From: Neospora caninum Liverpool | Lineage: Eukaryota > Apicomplexa > Conoidasida > Eucoccidiorida > Sarcocystidae | Reading direction: 5' to 3' | Assembly (NCBI RefSeq): GCF_000208865.1 | Contig: NC_018390.1 | Span: 510,798-574,797 of the forward strand | DNA length: 64,000 nucleotides | Shown: positions 7,101 through 50,219 of the stretch, piece after piece | Position numbering within the stretch: the stretch's first letter is position 1 | Layout: the number at the start of each line of letters is the position of its first letter | Position numbers and translations under genes: made by a program | Notes under the pieces: model-generated | What the model was told of the DNA's origin: nothing | Database searches by the model: none | The model's input: the letters and a program-made list of their open reading frames with translations, nothing else

Positions 7101-8407
7101 GCGAAGGCCGTGGCCAACGAGACTTCCGCGACCTTTCTTCGAGTTGTCGGGAGTGAACTGATTCAAAAGTACTTGGGAGACGGACCGAAGCTGGTCAGGG
7201 AAATGTTCAAACTCGCCCACGAGCACGCGCCGAGCATTGTCTTCATCGACGAAATCGACGCGGTCGGGACGAAACGGTGAGCGTGGCACGCGCTGTCGAG
7301 GAAGTTTCGCAATCGCAAGAAGACAGTTACCCTCCCACAAAAGAATTCAAGTGGATGCGTGCCTGGACAGTCTCTAGGGTGTTTGGCGTTTGTTCGGTTT
7401 CGTTTCCCCAATCGCAAAGAAATCGCGCGCGCGTCCAGGGAGGGTACCGGTGTGGACTCGTCGCGGAGGTGCGCACAGACACACAGCTGTCGAGAGAGAA
7501 GTACGGCGAGAGCGAGAGCCGCGCAAGCGTGGGAGGAAGAGACTGGGCGAGGCTCCATTTGTGTTCTTTTCGAGTGGAGTTACCTGCGCAAAAAGGAGAG
7601 AAAAAAAGACTGGAGAGAGCGCACACAGCTCTGATGGCGAGCGGCGAGGGGTGCGTTTCCTTTTTCAGGTACGACGCCACGAGCGGAGGAGAGAAAGAGA
7701 TTCAGCGAACTATGCTGGAGTTGCTCAACCAACTCGATGGCTTCGAAAGCAAAGGAGACGTGAAAGTGATCATGGCCACCAATCGAATCGAGAGTCTTGA
7801 CCCTGCGCTCATTCGACCTGGACGCATCGACCGAAAGATTCAGCTGCCGAATCCAGACACCAAAACAAAGCGGAAGATCTTCCAGGTAAAGACAGAACGA
7901 GAAGCGACAGAGGAGGCAATGCGTCAGCGAAGCAGAACACGCCGGGTTCCGGGGTTGCGAGACGGTCTCATGTGCCTCTGGAAACATCTCGTGTGTTTTT
8001 CAGATTCACACCGCGAAGATGACCATGGCGGACGACGTCGACCTCGAGGAGTTTGTCATGGCGAAGGACGAACTCTCCGGCGCCGACATCAAGGTAAACC
8101 GCAGCCAGCGCAGTCGCGACGCATGCAGCCACGAAGCGTTGCCTGCATGCGTGTGCATGTGCTCACTAAAAAGAGCGACAGGGGTGTGGAAACGTCGGGC
8201 CTGCCATACTTGGGCGTGCGCGCGAATGCATGCAAAGTGGCGGACGGGTGTTTTTCTGCATGCGTTGTTCAGGCGACGTGCACGGAGGCAGGGCTGCTGG
8301 CTCTGCGCGAACGGCGCATGAAGATCACCCAGGAAGACCTGAGGAAAGCGAAGGAGAAGGCGCTTTACCAGAAGAAGGGAAACATTCCGGAGAGTCTCTA
8401 CCTCTGA
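4122..8407 (+). CDS. RPT2: 26S proteasome regulatory ATPase subunit RPT2
   Basis: Eleven exons: 4122-4170, 4719-4832, 5178-5254, 5579-5626, 5777-5962, 6247-6366, 6828-6933, 7087-7276, 7669-7885, 8004-8093, 8273-8407. They join in phase to 443 residues, close to the ~440 usual for Rpt2. The product is one of six AAA+ ATPases in the base of the 19S particle, which unfolds ubiquitinated proteins and opens the 20S gate. The protein begins MGN, matching the N-myristoylated MG start typical of Rpt2. Next come a Lys-rich stretch, coiled coil, OB fold (about residues 85-165) and the AAA domain. Walker A GPPGTGKT (229-236) is rebuilt across the exon 7/8 junction. Walker B is IVFIDEID (284-291), and the sensor and arginine-finger region ATNR...PGRIDRKI is present. 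The C terminus SLYL carries the HbYX-type gate-opening motif. The 100-N gap falls in intron 6, so the coding sequence is complete. Confidence 0.97.
6380..6479. other. Assembly gap (100 N)
   Basis: Exactly 100 N, a conventional placeholder for a gap of unknown size. It lies in RPT2 intron 6 (6367-6827), so no coding sequence is lost, but the true intron length is unknown. Confidence 0.97.
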
Positions 8408-10083: not shown

Positions 10084-11523
10084 TCATGCGTGTCTTTGGT
10101 ATCGGCTAGGTAGGAGCGAGAGGAGGCCGGAGGCGAGGAAAGAGCCGAGAATGGGGATGGTAAGGCACGCCACGGCACTCCCCCAGTCTTCGGCGTAGCC
10201 GTTGAGAAGAAGCTGGCTGATGATGATGCCGAAGGCTGTTTGGACGTTGAGAGTGAGGGCCTTAGAAGAAACCAAGTGGAAAGCTGTATACACCGCGCCG
10301 ATCACAGTCCCCGCAGGGCGTCCAAAGAGATCTCCAAACGTCAAGGAATAGGCGGCCATGAGGAGCATACTGAAGAGGAGCAGCGTCAGGAGGTCAGAGA
10401 TGTGGTTTCCTGACGATAGAATGTTGAACAGCCCGAGAGGCCCCATCGTGTACCGCGCCAAGACGGCTCCCAAAACGCCTGCTCCACACTGGAAGAAGCA
10501 GTAAAACAGCATATCGGCGACGCGGTTGTGACCCGAGACCAGCGTGCCCAAGGTGACGGCTGGGTTGAGTGCGCCGCCAGATTTCCAGCCTATCGCGTAA
10601 ATCAGCGCCGCCGCCATGCACCCAATGCTGATAGCTGTGTTGGTGCCTTTGATATCCCCTGTCATAGCGCAGCACGCGCAGTAGGTGAAGGAAAGACTTG
10701 AAAAGAATTCCGCCATGAGCAGGTTGTCGTACGACAGCTTGTAGGCGCCCCAGCCCGCCGCCGCAGCCAAGAAGGGGATCACCACAAACGACGCAAACTG
10801 GGAGTAATTGATTGAGGTTCCTTGCAGTGCATTTCCGATATTTGTGCCGAGCGCCACTGCGGGGTTGAGGTATCCAGAGAGGCCAAAGGTCGCGGTGTAT
10901 GCGGCGTACGTGACTAGGGCCACGGTCACGCCGGAGAGTTGGCCGCCGTCCGCTGACGTCTCGATGTGGGCAAACGCCAAAGTGGTGCAGAAAACGAGCT
11001 GTGCGAGAAGAATTTTTGAAGACACCGCGCCTTCTATTCCAGCGGGCAGAATGCCCGACTCGCCGCAAATCAAGGCCGCCAGCGAAGCTCCGAGAGCCGC
11101 TCCGGCAAACTGAAGAACCATGCTCATCAAAGCACTCTTGAGCTTGATGCGTCCGGCAAAAACTTCAATCAGCGTCAGGATCGGGTTTAGCTGTACACCG
11201 CGGAACTGGTGGAGGGCTGAAGCCACGACGGCGTAGGTCAGGGACAACGCGAGGCCGTACGAGAACAGGTCCGACCTGAACAGGCTCAGGAGCTCGGCGG
11301 CGAAGAGGAGTGCAAAGCTCCCAACAAACTCCGCCGCCATGCTCTTTTTCTCAAAGTCCTCCATCTCGGAAACCGTCTTGAAAGGCTTGCCTTCAGAAAT
11401 CACGGCTTGAAGCCTGAGCGCTCCGTCTTCACTGGGCGCGCTGTGTCGGGATACGCGAGACGCGAGGCTTACCACAAAAAAGACCCGTCTTCGAGGTCTT
11501 CGAAAGAAGTGCAAGAGCGACAA
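10084..11523 (-). CDS. Double-length aquaporin (two fused MIP repeats)
   Basis: Single exon, 479 residues from the first ATG. A more natural start is Met54 (11364), immediately before the first membrane helix. The protein is about twice the length of a normal aquaporin and contains two consecutive MIP-like units. Residues ~60-265 begin KSMAAEFVGSF and residues ~268-470 begin MAEFFSSLSF. Each unit has about six hydrophobic helices. The NPA-type motifs are NPI (113-115) and NPA (220-222) in unit 1, then NPA (320-322) and RPA (402-404) in unit 2. The residue after the second motif of each unit, normally the selectivity-filter Arg, is Val and Gly respectively. Aquaporins conduct water, glycerol or other small solutes; substrate and location cannot be inferred here. 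It is convergent with RPT2 and divergent from RPL14. Family membership is clear; the tandem architecture is discussed as a finding. Confidence 0.88.
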   Translation of the reverse strand: MSLLHFFRRPRRRVFFVVSLASRVSRHSAPSEDGALRLQAVISEGKPFKTVSEMEDFEKKSMAAEFVGSFALLFAAELLSLFRSDLFSYGLALSLTYAVVASALHQFRGVQLNPILTLIEVFAGRIKLKSALMSMVLQFAGAALGASLAALICGESGILPAGIEGAVSSKILLAQLVFCTTLAFAHIETSADGGQLSGVTVALVTYAAYTATFGLSGYLNPAVALGTNIGNALQGTSINYSQFASFVVIPFLAAAAGWGAYKLSYDNLLMAEFFSSLSFTYCACCAMTGDIKGTNTAISIGCMAAALIYAIGWKSGGALNPAVTLGTLVSGHNRVADMLFYCFFQCGAGVLGAVLARYTMGPLGLFNILSSGNHISDLLTLLLFSMLLMAAYSLTFGDLFGRPAGTVIGAVYTAFHLVSSKALTLNVQTAFGIIISQLLLNGYAEDWGSAVACLTIPILGSFLASGLLSLLPSRYQRHA

Positions 11524-12067
11524 GGGGCTCTTTTCAAACGTTCAGAAAAGTGAGGGCAGCCGCAGCCTCCGCTTCTCTCTCAAGACACGCCCGCGTTTTT
11601 TAGTCGACCTTGCGCGAAGGTGCGGGTCGAGCGATTGTGCCGGAGAGAGACTCGAAGATCGGCTTGCGCCGCGTGTGCGCGTCCGGCTAACAGCCACCGG
11701 AGGAAAAACTGCGATGCTCGCATTGCAGCCACGAAAACTGATTTCTAACTAACGATCTTTGGTCCTTCCAACACCTCGGCTCTTGCGTCCTCAGTGGACG
11801 GCCCCCGTTCGAGGCACTCGCAGCTGCGGAACAAGCTGCTGGCGTCACCGTTTTTTGTCGAGCCCGGACGTCTCGAGCGGGGCGCCAAGGACGAAGGCAG
11901 CCTTCCAAAAAGATTTCCCGAAAACGCTGGAGCTTGGCCGCTGGTGTCAGAAGTCAGACGCCCACGGATACGAGCGGAAATGCAGGTTTCACCTGTCCGT
12001 CAGCCAGTGACTCACAAACGGTTTCTTGCCTCGGCAAGACGGCGAGTCTCGCTGTCTCACACTGGTT

Positions 12068-15832: not shown

Positions 15833-18434
15833 ATGCCGCAGGCAAACATCCCTGACTGGCGCTTTGCCAATGAGTGAGTTTTTTCGGGAGAATTCACGAG
15901 AAGATTCCAAATTCCCCTGATGCAATGTTCCGTGGCAGCTACTGGGTTGTCCACTTTCGCGCTCGTCCGAGGGTCAAACCACAAACATCGCTGGCGGAGG
16001 CACGGAGCAACTGCTTCACGGTTACTGCTTTCGCTTCTTTGTTCTGCTAAGTTCCAGCACTCCACCGAGCCGTATTTCTCCTCTCAGAGACATGTTCTGA
16101 CGCTTTTTTCTGTTTTATGGACCAAGTTGCGGTGTCCTCTCTCAGTGGGAGCCGTACGCGGCGCATTGAGCGGTTCGCGGCAAGCACATCCCAGCAGTAG
16201 TTTCTTCGCGTCTTTTGTTTGTTCTGCCCGTGCCTCCTCCGCGAGAAGTCGTTCCCAAAGCGTTACAAGCACGTTGCACTTCTTCTTTGCACCTGGATGC
16301 ACCGTAGAACGCAGCTGGCGATTGGACACCAGCATTTTTGCGTACAATCTCCAACACGGTGTGACCGGTACCGAGTGAACACGAGGGGGAATGAATGCGG
16401 CAAAATTCTTGATACAGTGGCCATATGAGGACATCGACGAGACTCATGGTGGATGGAAGCTAAAGAAATACGTTTTCCTTGCTTCATCCTTACCTATATG
16501 CCCCGCTACTGCTGCCACGGTTTCCTTAGTGTTGCCCAATGCACTGGGCTTTTGAGTGCGTCTTCGTTTTCTGTTGCTTTCGCAGTAAAGGCAGGTTCTC
16601 CGTAACTTCCTTCAAGGGCCACAAACTGGCCTGCAACGTCGACATAAAATACCCTGACTGCAACAAAGTCGCGATTCTCTGTCCAGGGTAAGCCGTCGCA
16701 CGGGAGGTTGGTGTGGCCAAGAAAGACGCCATCACCCGGCAGGATAAATGGGGCGATATTCTGAAATCGACGGCTCGTAGAAATGGGAAACGTGTAGCAA
16801 TTCACCGTAGCTTCCGGCGACAGATGTTCGGATATGTTTTCCGCTGAATGCCCAAATGTCTGTCATAATGGCCCTATCATCTCGGGTGTCTTAAATGCCC
16901 GTTGCTTGGAATGCTGCACAGACCTACATGTTTGGGGGGATTTCTGCAAACTGCTACTGTGTGCACCTATCAGGCTGTACGCGACCAAATGCCACGTACT
17001 TCTGACTACTATAGCCGACGGGCTACCGGTCAATTCGGTAAGTGTTTGCCCCGCAAAGACTTGCGTAAGGAGAAAACAACCCGATGTAAGGTGTCTAGTG
17101 AACCCTGATCTTTCATATCTACGTCCTGTGCAGAGACAGCCAACGAGTTAAATCTGACTGATCTCCTGGGGAAGCACAAGTGGAATCGAATCTAACAAAG
17201 CCCGAGGACCAATGAGTGCAAGGTTTACTGGGGTACAGATATGTATCCCATGATAGTCCGTTCAGCTGCTGTAGACAACAGAGTTTCAACGTCAGCTGTT
17301 GTCACGAGATTTATTCTGAGAAGCAGTTTCCACGTAGCAAAGTCAGCCGTGAAAAAATGAGAAGCCACAGATGTCACTAGGGCCAGAAAGTCGATGGTGA
17401 CACAATCCTTCTGATCAAAGTTGGGCCTTTCTGTAAGTTTAAAGAACGAAAAGCGAAGCCCTCGGGACGGCAGGCACTGGAAAGGAAGTAGGGGAAGCAA
17501 GTGTTTTTTTTATTGCAGATCCCCTGGCAGCGGGGTCCCTCTCAACGTTAAGTGTATCGTTACGGAGAATTGTTGTGTGAATCCAAACCATCAACAGAAA
17601 GATGGGTTTCCCTCGACTAGCATAGTAACGGCCTAAAGAGTGCGCACCAGGCATTTGATTCAAAAGACAGAACGCCCACTATCCCTCCTACCTGGCATGG
17701 TTGCCGTGGTTCAGATTCGTTTCGACTTCCGCGGCAATGGAGAATCTGAAGGCGATGAGGACTGGAGCTTTGGAGGCTATGTGGATGAGGCAAAGGATGA
17801 CTTGCACGCAGTTGTCGACGCATGCTCATCGTATAATCTCGAGGTCGTGTGTATAATCGGTCACTCCCGATCGGCGACGACCGTTCTTCTTCACGCTGCA
17901 ATTTTTGATGATATCCCACTAGTGGTCAGCCTTGCGGGTCGTTACGATATGCGACAAGGCCTAGAAAAACACTTTTCTTCTGAAAAATTCAAGGGGTTCT
18001 CAGTGCTGACTGCCGGTACGGGGATGGGCAAGCAAGCTGACGTTCTGTCAGCCACGCTTGAGAATGACAAAAACATTTTGAAGAAGCAAGGCGCAGAAGT
18101 CGACGAAAAAGTCGAATTCGTTTCCCCAGATGGCCGCAAACGCGTCATAACAAAAAAGTGTGTCCTCGACCGTCTCACGCTTGATCTCCGACAGTATTTC
18201 TCGCAGATCAAAAATACGAAAAAGATTCTAATCCTCCACGGCTCTGAAGATCGTACTGTGCCTTGTGAAGACGCTACACAACTGGCTAACGCCCTTCCAC
18301 AGAACAAGACCAAAGTTGTGATTATCGAAAAGGCATCCCATTCCCTCGTGGACAGTCAGGCGATCAAGACCCAGGTCGTCCAGGTCATCGAAAACTTCAT
18401 AGTCGAAAACGGCCTCAGTTGCAAGAAGGCTTAA
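15833..18434 (+). CDS. Plant-like alpha/beta hydrolase (serine esterase/lipase family)
   Basis: Four exons: 15833-15873, 16586-16687, 16974-17037, 17715-18434. All junctions are phase-consistent and give 308 residues. The order is that of the plant and bacterial family with an RFDFRGNGES signature: a first beta-strand region (residues ~15-47, ending VAILCPG where relatives have a catalytic-pocket HG), a helix, then RFDFRGNGESEG (71-82). The nucleophile elbow is GHSRS (118-122), giving Ser120; Asp248 lies in HGSEDRTVP and His278 in a SHS context, completing a triad. A lid-like insertion of ~75 residues lies between strands 6 and 7. The elbow is GHSRSA rather than the commoner GHSKGG, and the oxyanion HG is PG. 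The exact substrate is unknown; a carboxylesterase or acyl-hydrolase role is inferred. No signal peptide or membrane helix is visible, so it is probably cytosolic. Confidence 0.85.
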
Positions 18435-32304: not shown

Positions 32305-35300
32305 ATGTGGGCCCCTGGAGGCTGGTCACCTCCCCACGGAAGTGCCGCGCAAATTTCTGCACTGTCGCCTTCATCGCTTTCTTTTCATCCTTCTGACTCC
32401 ACAAAATCTGCTTCACTTCCGGATCTTCCCGACCCTTCGTCCTTTGATTCTCCTCATCCTTCCGTTCCCCCTCTGCCTCCCTCCTTTCCTCCCTCCTTTC
32501 CTCCCTCCTCTCCTCCCTCCTTTCCTCCCTCCTTTCCTCCCTCCTTTCCTCCCTCCTCTCCTCCCTCCTTTCCTCCCTCCTTTCCTCCCTCCTCTCCTCC
32601 CTCCTTTCCTCCCTCCTTTCCTCCCTCCTTTCCGTCCTTTCCTTCTTCGCATTCTTCCAGATGCCCCAGAGCTCAGGAGTTTCCTCAACAGGCAGCGGTT
32701 CGGCGCGACCAACCCGGTTCTTTTCTTCCGTATTTTTCGGAAGGCGAAGAGGCGCGTTTGCTGTCATTTCTGCTCCAGGCGCTCGCGCCTTCTGCCGCCT
32801 CTGCGCTTTTCGCTGAGGAGTTGAAAGCGCGGGAAAAAGAGAAACGGGAAACGCGAGACGAGAAAGGAGACTGCACAGCTCTCTGTGGCGCTGGCCTCGG
32901 CGCTGCAGTCGAGACTCCCGAGGAACGTCCGATCTCCGTTTCCTCGTCGACCTCAGGTTCCCTTTCTTCTGTGCCTTCTGACCCTGTTGCCTTGCCGTCT
33001 TTCGCTTCCTCTCCAGAGTTTGCAGCCTTGCGAGACGTCCTGCTCGGTCAAATTCGACAGCTCGTCGAGGAGGGGAAGAAAGCCCACGAAGGCTGTCGGC
33101 GTCTTCTGCAGGTTTCTCGCCCGGCTTTCGCGTCCACGTCGCGTTTCTCCGAGTCCTTCCGATCGCCCTACGACGCACAAAATGTCGTTCCGTTCCTGGA
33201 CCAGATGGAGATCCCGCGCGAGGCCGGCGAAGCGGGCGCAGACGAACGGCGAGCGCGAACGCGAAATCGGCGGTCTGAGCGGGCCAGAGGCGAGCGAAAG
33301 GCCGCCGAGTACGCCGCGGGGAAACAAGGCGAAGCGGGGGGAAAATACGAGCAACGTGGAGAACGCGAACAGGCAGAAGAGGCTAGAGTGTGGGAGGACG
33401 GAGACAGCGAGACACTGGAGAGGCCTTTCTACGAGGCAGAGACTCCCCGCGAATCGGAGGAAGACGAAGGAAGCGACGGAGAGGAGACCGAAAACGCGGC
33501 AACGGAAGGAGAAGACGCTGTTTCAGGAGAACGCGATGAGGCAGGCCAGAAGAAGCTAGACGCGAGGAACGCGAGAGAGGAGAGAGAAGAGGAAAGAGAC
33601 CGCATGCACTGCCGTCTCGACGACGAAGCCAGCGTAGGAAAGGAAGAGAAACGGATGAGCGACGCGACTCGCGGCACAGAGAGGAGAAACGAAGAAGCAG
33701 AGAGCGAGGATGCGACAGAGAGGAACGCCGCCGCGTATTTTGGGTGGCAAGCAGGAGCAAGACAAACGAGAGAGAGAGGTCAAGGGGAAATCCTAAGGGA
33801 CTGCGATGCTGTCCTTCCTGTGCCTGAGGAAACGTACTCAGATCGTGGCACGCAAGGGAGTAAGAGAGAGTTGCCTTGGACAGTCCTCTGGCTCGTAGCC
33901 TGTAAACCCACTACACCGCCACACCGGCTAGATGCACATCAACTGCGTTGAAAACCCCTCCCTCTCTTCTCTGGTTCGACTCCCTCTGTTTCTTGTCTCT
34001 CTCTCTGTTTCTTGTCTCTCTCTCTGTTTCTTCTCTCTCTCTGTTTCTTCTCTATCTCTGTCTCTTCTTCTCTCTCTGTCTCTTCTCTATCTCTGTCTCT
34101 TCTTCTCTCGTTGTCTCTTCTTCTCTCGTTGTCTCTTCTCTATCTCTGTCTCTTCTTCTCTCGTTGTCTCTTCTTCTCTCGTTGTCTCTTCTTCTCTCGT
34201 TGTCTCTTCTTCTCTCGTTGTCTCTTCTTCTCTCGTTGTCTCTTCTTCCCTCGTTGTCTCTCTTCTCCTTCTGTCCCCTGCGTCTCTTTTCTGCCCGTGA
34301 TGTCTCTGGTCATTTCGTGTGTGTGTTTAGAGCTGCAGGCGTGGAGTTACCAGTACCGGGTGTATCGGCACGCAGTGTTGGAGAATGCGATTGTGACGTT
34401 GCCGACTGGGGCGGGAAAGACGCTCATCGCCTCGATGGCGACGCACACGTGGCTTCAGAACGCCTTCGCCGCCGACAAGATCGTCGTCTTCCTCGCGCCG
34501 ACAGCCTTTCTCACCCTTCAGCAGCAACGCGCCTTGTCCGCCGTTCTGTCTCTCTTTTGTGACCCTGTGGGCGCAGGCGCACCCTGGACGGGCCGTCTCG
34601 TGGTGCGTCTGCGCGGCATTCTCGAGACGGAAAGGCTTCAAAGAGACGAAGACTGCGAGGACGAAACCGCGTATTTCCGCCACACGCTCCAGGCCGACTG
34701 GTCCCATCCCAAGTACTGGAGCGCCTTCTACTCGGCGCTCTCCGAGTACAGAGCCGCGCTCCTCGACCTGCATCAGGTACGAGACTGCGCGAAAGAAGAG
34801 GGACGAGAGCGGGGAGGCGAGGAGGCGAAAAGGAAGGCGTGCAAAGCGAGGCGCCAGAGGGAACATAGCGCACTCAGTTCGGCTCCGACGCTTCGAAACG
34901 GTTTTCAGAACAAGAGGGGAAAACGCGTCTGCTGTCGAGGCTCAAGACAAAACACATCCTGGCTCTCTCAACCGAGACGCCTCCTTTCCCTTTTGTCTCC
35001 GTGTCTTCTTCCTTTGCATGGCATTCTCTTCTTAAAACTCTTCTTTCCCCCTCCTTTTTCTTCTCGCCTCTCTCTCGCATCTCTCTCTCTCGCTTTCTCG
35101 CCTTCCTTCTTCCAGTCCCGTTTTTTCTGTTTGTGCGTGCAGTTGCCTGCGGCGCCTCCAGCAGATTTCGATTTGCGCCGCTTCAACTTGGGCCGTCTCC
35201 TCGCCCCGTTCCGCTTCGCGCCTTCGCAGCGCGCGGCGCTCCTGCGCGAAGGTCCGGGGGTTGAGCATACCAGCGAGCGCGGACGCGTCGAGGGCGACGC

Positions 35301-38300
35301 CCCAGGAGACTCTGAGGTCGACGAGCGTCTGAGCCTCCGCTGGCCGCGCGTCTTTGTCATGACGCCGGATAAATTTCGGAATCTCGCCTCTCGAGGATTG
35401 CTCCGCATCGACCGCGTTGGGCTCCTGATCTTCGACGAGGCCCATCGTGTGGGGCGTCTCCTGCAGGGGAACTCGAGCGCCTACGCGACCATTCTCGGGG
35501 TGTTTGTTCACCTGTGTCGCGCTGAGAAGAAGCCGCGCATTCTCGGCCTCACTGCGTCGCCCATTCCCGACAGAAAGCTCTGCTTCTTCGATCTGGACAA
35601 CGAGCTGAAGCGCGCCATGCGAACCCTGGAGACGCTCTTCCAGGCGCGAATTGTGAAGGCCGAGACGGAGAAGGCGCCTGCGGGGGCAAGTGGAAGGAGA
35701 CAGGAAGAAGGCGACAACGAGGAGGAAGCGACTCGGCCGCGAGAAGACGGCGGGGCCGAGAGAAACGCCGACGGGTACCGACGGCTGCGGGCGACGGAGA
35801 CGGAGGCGCAGAGAGACGACGCGTCCACGTGCACTCTGAGAACTGTGCGCTACCTGCGGGCGCCCGCCCCCTTTTACTGCGACCGCGAACTGCGCGTCCT
35901 GCATCGCCTCCTGAGCAGAAGATCCTGGGAGACAGGGCGCAGAGCGGAAGGCGAGGGCGAACAGACGGCGGGGAAGTCCGCGGAAGACGCGTCAGACGCG
36001 TCAGACGCGGGCTTTGAGACGGAGCAAAGCGACGGAGAGAGGAGACGGGAAGCGCGATACCTCGGAGAAAACGAAGCAAGAGAAGAAAGGAAAAAGCGAC
36101 ACATTCTGGAGGAAACAGACGCGAAACAGAAGAACGACACGGAGAGGGAAGAGAAGAAGGAAGAGAAGAACGAAACGGAGAGCGAAGAGAAGGAGCAAAG
36201 AGAGGAGATGGACCTTGAAGAAGGCCAAGAGAAGAGTGAGGGACGCGCGAGCGCAGCGAGGTCGAGGGGGAGAGAAGACGAGGCCTGGCAACACTTTTTC
36301 GAACGCGAGACCCGAGGTCGCCACACTTACTTTTCGTTTTTGCTTCAAGACGTTCTTGACATCTGTTCGGCCTTTTTCTACGTCGAGGTGACTCGCCTAG
36401 AGGGTGGACGAGAGGAACGTGGAAAGAGCGAAGATCAGCCCGAGACAGCGAATGGGGAAACTTCCCCAGGAACCCGCGAACGGGGACCAGGCGGAAGCTG
36501 CGCCTCGTCTTCTCCCTTTCCCCAACCGTCTTCTTCTCTTTCTTCCTCTCTTCCTTCTCTTTCTTCCTCTCTTCCTTCTCTTTCTTCCTCTCTTCCTTCT
36601 CTTTCTTCCTCTCTTCCTTCTCTTTCTTCCTCTCTTCCTTCTCTTCCTTCCTCTCTTCCTTCTCGTTCGCCGTGGTCTTCTTCTTCTCCGCCGCCGTCGT
36701 CTTCTTCTTCTCCGCCGCCGTCGTCTTCCCTGTCCTGGGACTCTTCACAGTCTGGACCGCCTCGGTCGGACCTTCTCTCCGATGTCGTGCACGAGGAAGA
36801 CGTGCGGCTGAACGTCGAGGTGATGAGGCTGCTCTGGAGGAGCGTGGAGACGCCTGTGCGTCAGAGCGCGAAGCGGAAGTGGGAAAATTTCCGTCGGCAC
36901 ATGCTGCACATCCAGCGCGACTTGGGCTTCTGGTGCGTGTGGAGGCTCAAGGCGAAAGTCGACGAAGAGTTCGCAGCGTGGCAGAGACGCCTGGCCTGTG
37001 GCCAAGGCGGCGCGTCGAATCTCGGCCCGGGAGACGACAGCGGCGAGGGAGACACCAGAGGCGAGACAGACGGGGGCGAGACAGATGGCGGCGAGGGGAG
37101 AGGGCGAGGAGACAAGATCGAGAAGCGAACGGTTTTTCAGGGAACAGACACCGGAGAAGGCAAGAGAAAAGCGAAGGAACAGCGTGCCCAAGACAGACCG
37201 CGCTCTTCCTCTCGTGCCTCGTTGCCACTCTGGATTTTTTTTCCGTTTCTCCCACCTCCTCCCTGCCACGGCCGGTGCTTCCGGTCCTCTTCCGCTCCAT
37301 CTTTTTCTGTTTCTTCTTTCGGCAGGGCGGGAGCGAAGGAGGCTGTGGCGGCTCTTCCCGTCGACTGCCTGCTGCGTCGCCTGTTTTTCGGGTATTTCCA
37401 CTTTTTCTCCAAACTGCTCTCCGCGGCTCTGTCCAACTCCGATCTGAAACTGACCATGCGTCTCTGTCGCTCGCGCGACCTCGCGCACTTGGGGAAGGCC
37501 TTCGACGCCCTCCCTTCTCGGGGACTCGAGGCGGAGGCGACGCGAGCTCTGGTTTTGCAACGCGTCGCCTGGTCACTCTTCTCCCACAAGCTCGTGCAGC
37601 TCGACCGCAGCCTGCGCGAGGCCTTCGGCGAACAGGCGCAGACGCAAACGCGGGAAGGCCTGCGCGGGGAGACATGCGAAATCAGAAAAGAACAAAGGAT
37701 CCAACTCGGCCGAGACGCACAGAACGCAGCGGAAAGCACAGACTGCGAAGCCGCACGCAAGTCCAACAGTGGCGCGAACCTCCGCGCTCCTCCCCACTCG
37801 TCTCCCCCCTCGTCTTCCTCCTCGTCTTCCTTCTCGTCTTCCTCCTCGTCTTCCTTCTCGTCTTCCTCCTCGTCTTCCTTCTCGTCTTTTTTTTCTTTTC
37901 CTCCTTCGCCTGTCCCTTGTTCGCCGTCCTCGCCAGGCCTGGCTCTGGGAGACGTCCCGAAGTGCGGACTCGTCTTTTGTCGGCGGCGCGTGGACGCGTG
38001 GCTCCTGTGCGAGTTCCTCAAAGCCCGTCGCCTCTTCTTCGTCGACTGGATTTGCAGTTCCTCCGTCGCCTCGCAAGACGCCGCCTGGCTCTTTGGAGTC
38101 GGAAAGGCTTCGCGCGACCGAAACCGCTGCCTCGACCGCCTTCGTGCCACGCACGTAGTCTGGGAGAAACTCAAGGCTTCCAAACACAAACTCCACGACC
38201 GCACACAAAGATCCGAACAGACCTCAGTTCCGCAACAGCTCTCCTCTTCTTCCTCTTTTTCTTCCTCTTCTTCTTCCTCTTTTTCTTCCTCTTTTTCTTC

Positions 38301-44370: not shown

Positions 44371-47300
44371 TTATAGCGAGACATGTGCACGCCCGTAACT
44401 ATACAGATGTACATGTTTGCATGCAGTTGGGTGTTTCCGCTGGATGATTGCGGCGTCTTGTTTGTTTCTTTGGTTCAGGTTTTTTTCGACGAAGAAGTGA
44501 AAATGCGCTTTCCGTGAAAGACGCGCTCCGGGAAGAAGGAATGGAAATCTTTTACCATCTTCGGTCTCGCGGCCTGGAGCCTGTCGCCCTCAGGATGACG
44601 CATCAGTTCGGTCGTTGCTTTCGATTCTACCGGCTCCACACCATTCACCGACATGTCAGCGAAAAGGGGGGAAATCGGTGATAGGCCAGCGAGGAAGAAA
44701 AAAGAGAAACCGCCAGTCCACGCGCATCTCAAAACGCATACAGATGCGCAAACATACACCACTCCTCTATATACGGAGAGGTATATGTTTATGTTCCTTG
44801 ATGTATACATATATATGTATATATGTAGTTATACGCTTACATGTATATATATATATATATATTCGTATATCCGCACCACGTATATATATATATATACATA
44901 TATATGTATATATGGATGTACACGTATATGTGCATATTGAGTAATGTGTCATGCAGTACATACAGATATGTAAGTATCTGGATGTGTATATCTGTGTGCT
45001 TCCGGGGGAGGAGGAAACGGTTATGGGCATACGTTTTCGACGCGAACGCGTAGGCTCACGGGGTTTTCTTCTGTTTCCGTTTTTCGAGGGGAAACGAAAA
45101 AGTTGAAGAAGACTGCAGTCCTCTGTGCAGTGCTGCATTGCGTGTTTTGCGTGGGCCTTGAGAGGGGAAAGAGCCGTTCTGGTTTGCGAAACACATGGAG
45201 CAAAAGGCAGAGAACATGTGATTTTTCAGCTGACACCGCACAACGTGATGATCAACAGCGACGCAGGCTTCACCCTGGGCACCCTCTGTCGGTAAGCAGA
45301 GCTTCTTGGAACGAAGGCAAAAGATCCTTTTTCGAAAAAGAGATCAGGACTCTTTTTCTGCAGAACGTATTCGAAGAACGGTATTGTGATAGGTCGGCTC
45401 GGACTCCGGAAAAGGAAAACAACTCCAAAACTCGTTCAAGTCTCGCAATCAGTCCTTCTCCCGCGCAATGCATCTCCAGAGAAAGGCTCTTCCCTGACTC
45501 TCCCTTCGAGTGCACTACCACCTTCCCGTCTCTTCACCTGTTTCCACATCCAAAACTGCACATTTAAACATAAATATAAATGTAAATATTAAATGTATAT
45601 ATGCATATATATGCACAGATATGTAAATATATACACAAGTATATATTATATATAAACATAGGTATAAATCTATAAATGTGTGTGTGTGTCATTCGCGTGT
45701 CTTCCGCTTTCAGAGTTTATCTGAAGCAGTTCAAACAACAGCTGGAAGAGCCGCATCCAGACCGGGAGCGGGGACCGCGCGGAAATTGCTTCCTCGTTCA
45801 GGCTGTCAAACTGAGACAGGTGAGAGAAAGAGAAAGAAGAAAAGAGAAAGAAGAGGAAGACGCGAAGGCGCGGATGTCAGGACGGCGAAGGCCCGCGCAG
45901 AAGCCGGTGCGCGAGAGAGGCGCGAAAGAGACGAAAGCCGAGACACCCCCTCGACGCGCAAACCCGCTAGTGGGAAGCAGTCCATGCCCAAACCTTCAGG
46001 CATCTCTCTCTCTGTGTTGATGTGTCTATATGTTTGTGTGTATGGGAGGGTTTATTTCTCTGTCTCTCTGTGTCACTGTCGGTGTCTGTTTGCTTGTCTC
46101 TTTCTCTGTCTCTCACCACTTTCTCTGTCTCTCCCCACTTTCTCTGTCTCCTTCGTGCCTGCGCTTCCAGGGTGCGCGGCAGCTCTTCTCTCGCGACCGG
46201 GCTCTGGACGCCGACGTCTTTGGCGGACTCCATGCGCCCCAGTTCGCACATCTTCTGCCCATCTCGGAGCCGATGTTCCAGGCGAGTTGCTGCGCCAGCT
46301 GCCGTCAGGCTCCTCCAAAAAGAGAAGAAGCGAAGTGGCAGGATAAACGCGAGCGACACTGGCGACCAGCGCCGGAGACACGCATGCGACAAAAGGATAG
46401 AGAGAGACATGCAGCAGCGGCGAGACGCTTCTCGTGGTGCGCGCTCGCGCACAAGAGAAAGGGCGAGACCGCAGGACGGAAGCGAACGACTCCGAGAGTG
46501 CCGAGGAGAGAAAAGGACGAGGCGAAGGCTCTGAGGCGCCTGGTTTTGCTCTGTCGTTCTCCATCTTTTCTGCTCGCTTCTGTGTGGTGAGGGGTGTCTT
46601 GGCTCCCGCGAGAACGGCGTTCTTCCTGCTCCTTCAACTGTTTCTCTCTTCAGGAAATTTCGTGGATGCCGGCGATTCTCTTCGAGCTCGAGGTTCAGGC
46701 GAAACACTGCGACCTCGTGCGGCGCTTGAAACGCGATTTGCAGCCGTTCCTCTTCGCTCCGGGAGCCCGAAAAGTTCGCCTGCCTCTCGGTGCGTCGGCC
46801 AGCTGCTGCTTCGCCTCTCTCTGTTCTTCGTCTCTTTGCTCCCCTTCCGCATTTCGCTCCTTTTCCGTCTTTCGTCGACACGCACCTGCAACAGGCGGTG
46901 AAGCAAGTTGAACCCCCCCATGAGCGTCTAGGATCGGAGACGCGAGAAGAAAAGAGAGAACAAGGAGAGAGAACAGATCATGGCGCTCCCGATGTGCGAC
47001 CGGGGGATAGAAGGACTTCCTTAAATGCCGATATGCACGCACAAAAACACGTGCATTTTAACAGGTTCCTCACTTGTGCATCCTTCACCTGATTTATATA
47101 TATGTATATATATACGTGCATCTGTTGATATGTGGATCTGTGTAAATGTATGTGTGTAGGTGTCCCAACATGTCTCTATATTCATGTGTGTACGTGTGTC
47201 AAGTGTGTGTGTGTGTATGCACAGCCTAGTCAGTTCTCGCGTAGGGGGCCTTCTGCGTCTCTCTCGTGGTTCTGCAGGTCGCGTTTTTCTGTCGTGTTTT

Positions 47301-50219
47301 TTCCAGAAGTTGACTTCCCGCTCGTCTCCAAGTCCTTGACAGCTCCGCAGAGTCGCCTCGCGGGCGCCGTGGACGCGGCCGGCGTCGAGTGGCACAGCCA
47401 GCGTTTGGAACTTCTCGGCGACGCCGTCTTGAAGTTCATCGTCTCGACGTACCTTTTTTTCCACGTGCACGGAGACGCGCCTCCTCCCTGCGAGCAGACG
47501 CACACAGACGAAGAAACGAAAGAAGAGAAGGAGGCGAAGGAAGAGAAGGACGCGAAGGAAGAGAAGGACGAGGAGAAAGAAAAGGACGAGGAGAAAGAGA
47601 AAGACGCGGAGGAATTCGGAGAGAAAGAAGAGAGGGATGGGGCGAAGCTCGAGGGGGGAAGAAGGGATGCCTTCTCTGCTTCCTTTGCTGCGTGTTTGGA
47701 GTCCGGCGAGGGCGAGGCGCCAGGGTGGAGACGCGGGCCAGATCGAACCCGAGAGAGAGCGAGAGCGAAGCGTCGCCTGGACGTTCGCGAGGGAAGGCGA
47801 CGCTCGCGGAAAGACGAGGACTGCGGGGGTTCTCCGCTTTCTGTCCTCACGCAAGAACGCGCTGACGCCTTCTTTGGCGGGGTCGGCGAGGGGACACTGT
47901 CGAGGCTCAGACAGCATTACATTGCGAACGATTATCTGCGCTTCGCGATGCGGCGCTTTCGCCTCCAGGCGCACCTCGTTGCCTTTCCCTTTGTGGGCCA
48001 CAAGAAGTCGCTCGCGGACCTGCGGGAGCAACCCGTCTCCGAGAAGATGCAGGCCGATGTCGTCGAGGCTCTGATCGGCGCGATCTACTTGGCGAACGTG
48101 GAAAACGTCTCGCTCTTCCCCTTCTCGCAGAGCGAAAAGCTCCGCGGCGAAAAGGTTGGCGGCGAGAAGAAAGCACAGACAGAGGAAAGGGAAAGACGCG
48201 ACAGCCAGAGAGTCGAGAAGGAGGCAGCTGAACGAACGGGGGCTCAGAGGCAGGCGGTGAGGCAGAGAAGGAGGAAGCGACGCGAAGGCCGTGAAGCAGC
48301 CAGACAACAAGAGAAAGACACGCGTTTCGTCGGATCGAGCTCGGGGTGCGTGGCGGCTGCAGCCTTCTTCGACGCTTACCTTCTTCTCCCGAGCGTCGTG
48401 GACGAAGCGGTCTGCCGTCTTGAAGAGGAAAACCAACGAACGCAGCAGCACAGACGGAAGGCCGAGGAACAGAAGGGCGAAAGCGGAAAAGAAGAGGACA
48501 GAGTCCAAGAAGGCTTGGCGGTCAGGCAAGAGGGCGATTCTCCAAGCGAGGCAACTCGCGACGAAGAGAAGGAAGTGCTGGAGCGCCGGAAGGCTCGTCT
48601 CGCTGAGTTTGTCGAGAAGGCGGCACGCGCCGGGGAGTGTTTCTGTACGAGCGAGGAAGGAAGCGAAAAAGGTGAAAAAGAAATCAACAAAGACGCGTGG
48701 AAGCTCCTCCCCGACAGGCTCACGAAACAGACAACAGATCTGCGCGCTCTCGCCCGTCTTCCTCACATGTCGCAAACGTTTCTTCTTCTCTGGACAGCGA
48801 CCGAGACATGGCGAAGATCCCACACCTATCTCGCAAAACAGGAAGAAGAAGATGAAGAAGAAGAAGAAGAGGAGGACGGAGAAGAGGAAGAAGAGGAAGA
48901 TGGTGAAGAAGAGGAAGAAGAAGAAGAGGAGGACGGAGAAGAAGAAGAAGAAGAGGAAGAAGAAGAAGAGGAGGACGAAGAAGAAGAAGATGAGGGGGAA
49001 GAAGAGGAGCGTGGTGTTTGGAAGGAAGCTCCAGCTAGGCGGGAAGTCGACAGATCTCAGTTTTTGTGGATGCGCAAGATTTTTTCCCGCTACGTGACAG
49101 ACGGCAGAGGTGATATCGATCGCCTCATGGAGATTGATCCCGTGCGGGGCGTGTATCTGCGGCCTAAGGAAAGTCTCCTTTCGTCTCTGCATAACGGCAC
49201 AAGCGTCTCGGGCCAGGAGACGGAGGCGGCAGACGCAGGCGAGAGAGAACGTCTTCTTCGCTCGCTGCATCTCCTCTCTCAGACAATTCGTGGAGTTTCC
49301 AGCAACGCCAGCGTCTTGCGCATGTGGCGGAGTCCCGGGGAGAACACAGAGAGAAGAGAAGCGCAAAGGAAAACGGAGTCTGAGCAAACAAACGAGAACG
49401 CGGTTTCCTCTTCTCTCTCTTCCTTTTCTTCTGTCTCTTCTTCTCGCGGGAAGCGTCAGAGAGACAGAGGCTTCCACCTGCCTGGGTTGTTGACTGTGGC
49501 GAGGAACCGCGACGTCGTAAGTGACAAAAGACGCGAGTGGAGAGACGCTCCTGAAAATCCCTTTATCTGTTCACCGCCTCCTTTCTCCGCCCTGTTTGCT
49601 TCATTTCCCCTTCCAGTCTATTTCACGCAGTCGAGCTCCTGGGCACAAAAAAAGACGACGCAACTCTCCGCGCTCGCCTCATGACGTTACCACACCACCG
49701 CCACTGCAACTCGGCGACACGTCTCCGGGACCTTTGAAGTCGACGCCCGATTTCAACACACAGAGACGTCGCCAAATCAGCAAAATCTGCTGTGGCTGTC
49801 GCTCCTTTCTACCCTTTCTACGTTTACGATTTCATGCTCCACTTTGTCGAGGGAGAAAAGAGGCGATAGGCGCAAGCAACTTTCATGTGTTGAGAGGCCT
49901 TGCATTTCCGGTCTTTTGTCGCAGATCCTTCCCGGCCTCGCCGAAACCTACGAGCGCCTCGAGTACCTCGGCGATTCCGTCATCGGCTTTCTCGTCACGG
50001 ACTGGCTGTTCTCGCGATTTCCTGCCTTCCGCGAGGGCCCTCTGAGTGAAGCGAAAAACGTACTGCTTTCCAATCAATTCTTCGCCAGAAAACTCCTCAG
50101 AAGGTAAGACGACCCAAAGGTTCCCAAGACAACTGCCATACATGCTCCCGTCTGCACAAATACACATCAATATATACATGTATACATATATATATATATA
50201 TACATATATACATATATAC

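Follow-up and report, generated by a model that had tools for sequence, protein, structure and literature searches.

The stretch of Neospora caninum Liverpool DNA considered here, referred to as the window, comprises 64,000 nucleotides (NCBI RefSeq assembly GCF_000208865.1, contig NC_018390.1, positions 510,798 to 574,797 of the forward strand), and feature coordinates count from its first letter. On its minus strand lies a coding sequence (10084..11364) whose product of 426 amino acids belongs to the MIP/aquaporin superfamily and is made up of two units with 12 helices in all; the records of its orthologues bear the name 'aquaporin 2'. The open frame, which extends over 10084-11541, is uninterrupted, as a preliminary description of the locus had stated, but the length of 479 residues given there has to be revised: that version begins with a TTG, a start of the bacterial type, and the 53 residues it adds include no methionine. 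The single in-frame methionine start is the ATG at 11364, embedded in the context TCCGAGATGG with a purine at -3 and a G at +4, from which the frame runs to the stop at 10084. The starts of three orthologues fall at most two residues from this ATG.

The family profile PF00230 matches the frame twice in a search of the genome (57.5 Mb, 14 contigs), with E-values of 1.9e-8 and 4.0e-6 and both matches above the cut-off, while the whole protein reaches 62.3 bits against a cut-off of 25 (E 7.3e-17). Two structure models predict 12 membrane helices, not six, together with four half-helices, which fall into a unit N (residues 1-212; 10729..11364, minus strand) and a unit C (residues 215-426; 10087..10722, minus strand) of six helices and two half-helices each. 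Every unit opens with an AEF-type first helix (A11-E12-F13 and A218-E219-F220), so that two full MIP units, about 12 helices and the restart of each half, all proposed in the preliminary description, are borne out. In both models a link of two residues (213-214; 10723..10728, minus strand), placed by the predicted secondary structure and by spacing, joins helix 6, the last of unit N, to helix 1 of unit C. The units are very dissimilar (the best BLASTP stretch is identical at 16 of 50 positions), and because the coccidian halves are so unlike each other, the duplication or fusion that gave rise to them looks old.

The same two-unit architecture, in proteins of 425-428 residues, is shared by all four coccidian species in which the protein was found: besides Neospora these are Toxoplasma gondii (P0002, 84% identity), Besnoitia besnoiti (P0003, 72%) and Cystoisospora suis (P0004, 67%), aligned over 99-100% of the length. 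The records of the latter three carry the name 'aquaporin 2' (from NCBI for T. gondii), which is silent on the two units; they share the motifs of the Neospora protein, the main difference being an Ile for Val at the unit N Arg site of Cystoisospora. No Eimeria, Sarcocystis, Cyclospora or chromerid name occurs among the matches listed, for which only word-sharing candidates were scored and in which many rows are nameless. Since the architecture is kept in all four species, chance is excluded, and since three other coccidians hold a protein of this length, the two units do not owe their union to an assembly join. That an assembly or annotation artefact has fused two tandem genes is accordingly barely credible: no support for it was found, and it is already contradicted by the shared length and architecture, by the lack of an internal stop and by the conservation of the link region (GWGxYKL).

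Pore motifs and selectivity filters

Neither unit has the two NPA motifs that are a usual, though not universal, trait of MIPs; in all four species the set is NPI and NPA in unit N, and NPA and NVQ in unit C. Motif 1 (NPI, residues 60-62; 11179..11187) is identical in the four proteins, motif 2 (NPA, 167-169; 10858..10866) and motif 3 (NPA, 267-269; 10558..10566) were placed by comparison of the orthologues and by alignment with other double MIPs, and motif 4 (373-375; 10240..10248, all on the minus strand) has NVQ in the place of NPA, its Asn being followed by a half-helix at 374-388. The half-helices of both models begin one residue past the motif Asn, at 61, 168, 268 and 374. The first three of these motifs are those of the preliminary description. 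The fourth is not: the RPA named there (349-351; 10312..10320, minus strand) belongs to loop D and the start of helix 5 and is no pore motif.

RPA is rejected as the fourth motif by three kinds of evidence. In an alignment of 18 double MIPs (the four coccidian proteins and 14 others) the column of the fourth-NPA Asn is occupied by Asn373, in the coccidian stretch LNVQTAFG. HMMER comparison with solved structures sets RPAG opposite GRVPAG of an AqpZ and His363 opposite the His of its HLIS, and both models place RPA where helix 5 begins (348-365 or 346-365). Profile comparison of unit C by hhalign places Asn373 opposite the second-NPA Asn in each of four alignments, namely with dinoflagellate-type C halves, a bacterial/archaeal set, the single aquaporin of the same genome and unit N, and the stretch matches at Asn, Phe and Gly what we take to be the common N-P-A-R-S-F-G frame. 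The loss of the motif through sequencing error is likewise rejected, NVQT being identical in all four species, as are LNVQT, NPI and RPAG.

Motif 4 is therefore best read as NVQ, with moderate confidence in loop E just ahead of it. Against this reading stand two local HMMER alignments that run ungapped past His363 and thus pair two residues later; one sets Q375-T376-A377-F378 opposite NPAR, and the second, with AqpZ, points the same way but ends at 374. The models, moreover, have a mean predicted local distance difference test score (pLDDT) of only 59 and 63 over residues 341-350 and of 67 and 69 over 361-370. The QTA-F reading, shifted by two residues, appears the weaker, and NVQ is preferred because the other four comparisons, both models and the Asn/Phe/Gly pattern agree on it.

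The selectivity-filter positions were assigned by the offsets from the motif Asn in AQP1 and AqpZ, which presumably apply here. In unit N they would fall on Leu40, for which the three orthologues have Leu, Val and Ile, on Ala155 and Gly164, and on Val170 (10855..10857, minus strand), the residue of the filter-Arg (LE2) site, which is Ile in Cystoisospora. The corresponding residues of unit C would be Ile247, His363, position 370 (Leu, Val, Ala, Met) and, at LE2, Thr376 (10237..10239, minus strand), identical in all four species. We take His363 (helix 5; 10276..10278, minus strand), conserved in the four proteins, as the H5 filter residue on the strength of its alignment with AqpZ; the plain offset points instead to residue 361 (Ala, Val, Ala, Gly). 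Taken together, His363 and Asn373 mean that loop E is shorter by two residues than in AqpZ. The second 'Arg' site falls on Thr376 when motif 4 is read as NVQ, and would be Phe378 under the shifted pairing, so that either way both units lack the filter Arg, a usual but not universal residue. Val and Gly had originally been proposed to replace it: Val170 stands, whereas the place of the Gly is taken by Thr376 (or, on the weaker pairing, by Phe378). Aquaglyceroporins of the GlpF type have an Asp after the second NPA-Arg, and at this site unit N has Ala, and unit C Ala in three of the four species and Thr in Besnoitia. As a whole, the preliminary observation is partly confirmed and its interpretation partly supported.

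The two units are not equally conserved. Unit C is the less conserved in all six species pairs (p <0.05 in three of the six, uncorrected), with 110 of 214 columns invariant against 134 of 212 in unit N (p 0.015), and its last helix has only four invariant columns out of 23. The fixation of NVQT and His363 in four species nevertheless argues against a simple decay of unit C.

Known channels, fused relatives and origin

The same genome encodes a single aquaporin (L001 1321-2181), which we take to be the putative orthologue of TgAQP1. It is alike in its MIP family and in the Val at the filter-Arg site (NPAV), but consists of one unit with both NPA motifs, and nothing in the tree, hhalign or HMMER results marks it as the nearest relative of one half or the other. 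Plant TIP1-type aquaporins, too, have Val at the filter-Arg site, and differ from the coccidian protein in being single units with a His in helix 2 and two NPA motifs. Plasmodium AQP2 shares the name and the missing filter Arg but not the architecture: according to the accessible part of PMC10622946, it has one six-helix unit in about 600 amino acids, with a long loop A, NPA/NPM motifs and Phe in place of Arg. Identity of the two proteins is rejected on these grounds, the coccidian one having two units and other motifs. PMC6488386, in which AQP2 occurs only in a reference on another protein, was discarded as a source on it.

Fused MIPs as such are a known kind, since many, the majority of them from ochrophytes and dinophyceans, have been reported by Irisarri et al. 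(2024; PMC11316224). In the portion of that article available, at least two MIP domains, some of them partial only, are given for 1,101 of 7,541 MIPs, and 624 multi-domain MIPs are assigned to the ochrophyte and dinophycean clade SAR IX, with a call for further scrutiny; the words 'apicomplexa' and 'toxoplasma' are absent from its main text. The coccidian protein resembles the SAR IX members in having two or more MIP domains per chain.

Two homologue searches listed 12 and 17 proteins, of which four were coccidian and the rest double MIPs, apart from one and two singles, respectively; where named, the doubles come from Symbiodinium. A search with an alignment of this dinoflagellate type scored 7996 proteins, 3302 of them at E ≤1e-10. 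The two homologue searches and the best 120 of these 3302 matches supplied 129 non-coccidian proteins, among which 119, many of them near copies, have exactly four pattern matches and were used as the set of doubles. These resemble the coccidian protein in lacking the filter Arg in both units, and probably belong to SAR IX. The filter of their N halves is Ile (117), Gly (102) or Ala (16), Gly (113) and Val (119), and that of their C halves Ile (114), Gly (115), Gly (118) and Val (118; Ile in one). They differ in having NPA at nearly every site (at sites 1 to 4, respectively, in 114, 114, 112 and 113 of the 114 proteins with exactly four NPx motifs), where the first and fourth sites of the coccidian protein are NPI and NVQ, and in their longer link: the distance between motif 2 and the Glu of the following helix 1 is 53-106 residues (median 63), against 52 in all four coccidian proteins. 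Identity between the coccidian protein and the 14 aligned doubles is 20-25%. A few of the best 120 matches listed (P0021, P0022, P0023, P0030) are still longer, with 800-900 amino acids, seven or eight motifs and about four units. Two of them, P0021 (900 amino acids, a EukProt record with eight NPA-type motifs) and P0022 (822 amino acids, seven motifs, Durusdinium trenchii), possibly hold a whole tetramer in one polypeptide.

The descent of the coccidian halves was approached with a tree of 52 rows (the eight coccidian halves, 16 doubles chosen among the 119 and represented by both halves, and 12 single MIPs), in which the coccidian halves have very long branches. The approximately unbiased (AU) test rejected none of six groupings: coccidian N with coccidian C (p 0.41), N with dinoflagellate-type N (0.20), C with C (0.23), all four together (0.30), C with N (0.13) and N with C (0.40). 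By hhalign, coccidian N scores 102 against dinoflagellate-type N, 91 against C and 76 against the bacterial/archaeal set; coccidian C scores best against the bacterial/archaeal set (94 v. 87 and 79). With HMMER, dinoflagellate-type N outscores the bacterial/archaeal set for all eight coccidian halves, and the bacterial/archaeal set outscores dinoflagellate-type C for two of the four coccidian C halves. The two methods disagree over unit C. It is conceivable, though we regard it as unlikely, that dinoflagellates and coccidia share Arg-less, covalently linked aquaporins of an ancient class, and that the coccidian second unit turned from a pore into something else, for instance a built-in gate or a new kind of pore with a conserved Asn-Val-Gln half-helix, making an obligate two-component assembly from one gene.

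Proposed working of the two units

The reading that we tentatively favour, as slightly less than an even chance, is that of a covalent dimer in which unit N forms a wide nonpolar pore and unit C an altered partner. Two chains may pair into a four-unit assembly equivalent to the aquaporin tetramer. Unit N would be an open pore of low selectivity that passes small neutral solutes of the class of water, ammonia, hydrogen peroxide and urea, as suggested by the retention of both Asn-Pro pairs and by a filter of small, nonpolar or aliphatic residues. Unit C, with Asn-Val-Gln at the second half-helix, Thr at the Arg site and both the Pro and the Ala of its second motif lost, would conduct poorly or differently and mainly serve assembly or control. 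Several points weigh against this picture, in addition to the shifted alignments and low pLDDT values around motif 4: the two-residue link may be too short for adjacent positions in a standard tetramer, the filter positions depend on offsets carried over from AQP1 and AqpZ, and the identity of NVQT, His363 and Ile247 in all four species fits an active second pore equally well. Such a pore is the essence of a possible but less probable explanation, in which both units conduct, but different solutes, unit N as a wide, nonpolar pore and unit C as one with His363 and Thr376 in its filter, and the fusion fixes a 1:1 ratio of the two channel types. The invariance of NVQT, His363 and the NPA at 267-269 speaks for it, as does the prediction of both unit C half-helices, and MIPs with non-NPA motifs can conduct. 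Plasmodium AQP2, for which the accessible part of PMC10622946 reports no flux, offers a case of NPA/NPM motifs. That Pro and Ala are both missing where a half-helix starts, however, goes beyond a single swap, and unit C is the less conserved, most evidently in its last helix. We consider an altered partner more likely than a second functional pore.

It is improbable that neither unit is mainly a channel and that the protein serves in membrane adhesion, as a scaffold or as a sensor with an aquaporin fold. The filter Arg is missing from both units and one motif is lost, as this explanation would have it, but unit N has retained its two Asn-Pro pairs, its filter resembles those of many fused relatives, and the single aquaporin encoded by the same genome likewise has Val at the filter-Arg site. 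The converse assignment, with unit C conducting and unit N as its inert partner, seems more doubtful still. In all four species unit C does score higher than unit N when compared with bacterial and archaeal MIPs, and its His aligns with the helix 5 His of AqpZ; yet both Asn-Pro pairs are found in unit N and not in unit C, and with dinoflagellate-type N halves as the reference the score of unit N equals or exceeds that of unit C in every species.

Significance and neighbouring features

Two reviews, in the parts accessible, credit Toxoplasma with a single aquaporin (PMC9799330; PMC5881087). Set against this count, a second, fused aquaporin is encoded and kept in four genera, Toxoplasma, Neospora, Besnoitia and Cystoisospora. 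Searches of open-access papers turned up no study of it and no test of its function, and as far as these searches show, the coccidian branch with NPI and NVQ is undescribed. If the protein conducts, it would constitute an unstudied route for the handling of water, ammonia or peroxide in these parasites. As a natural fusion it holds together, in a constant arrangement, a unit altered at the pore and another altered far less, which could make it useful for probing the roles of the second half-helix and of neighbouring units in aquaporins.

A scan of the window against Rfam at gathering scores gave no match, and the three matches in an NCBIfam scan were all below the cut-off. Beside the aquaporin gene, on the opposite strand, a frame (7157-8404, plus strand) contains the end of an AAA ATPase domain. 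Frames with DEAD/ResIII helicase and ribonuclease III domains occur at 33952-38100 and 47129-49681 (both plus strand) and could be parts of a candidate Dicer-like RNA-silencing gene, be it one gene or more. An alpha/beta hydrolase domain is encoded at 17637-18431 (plus strand).
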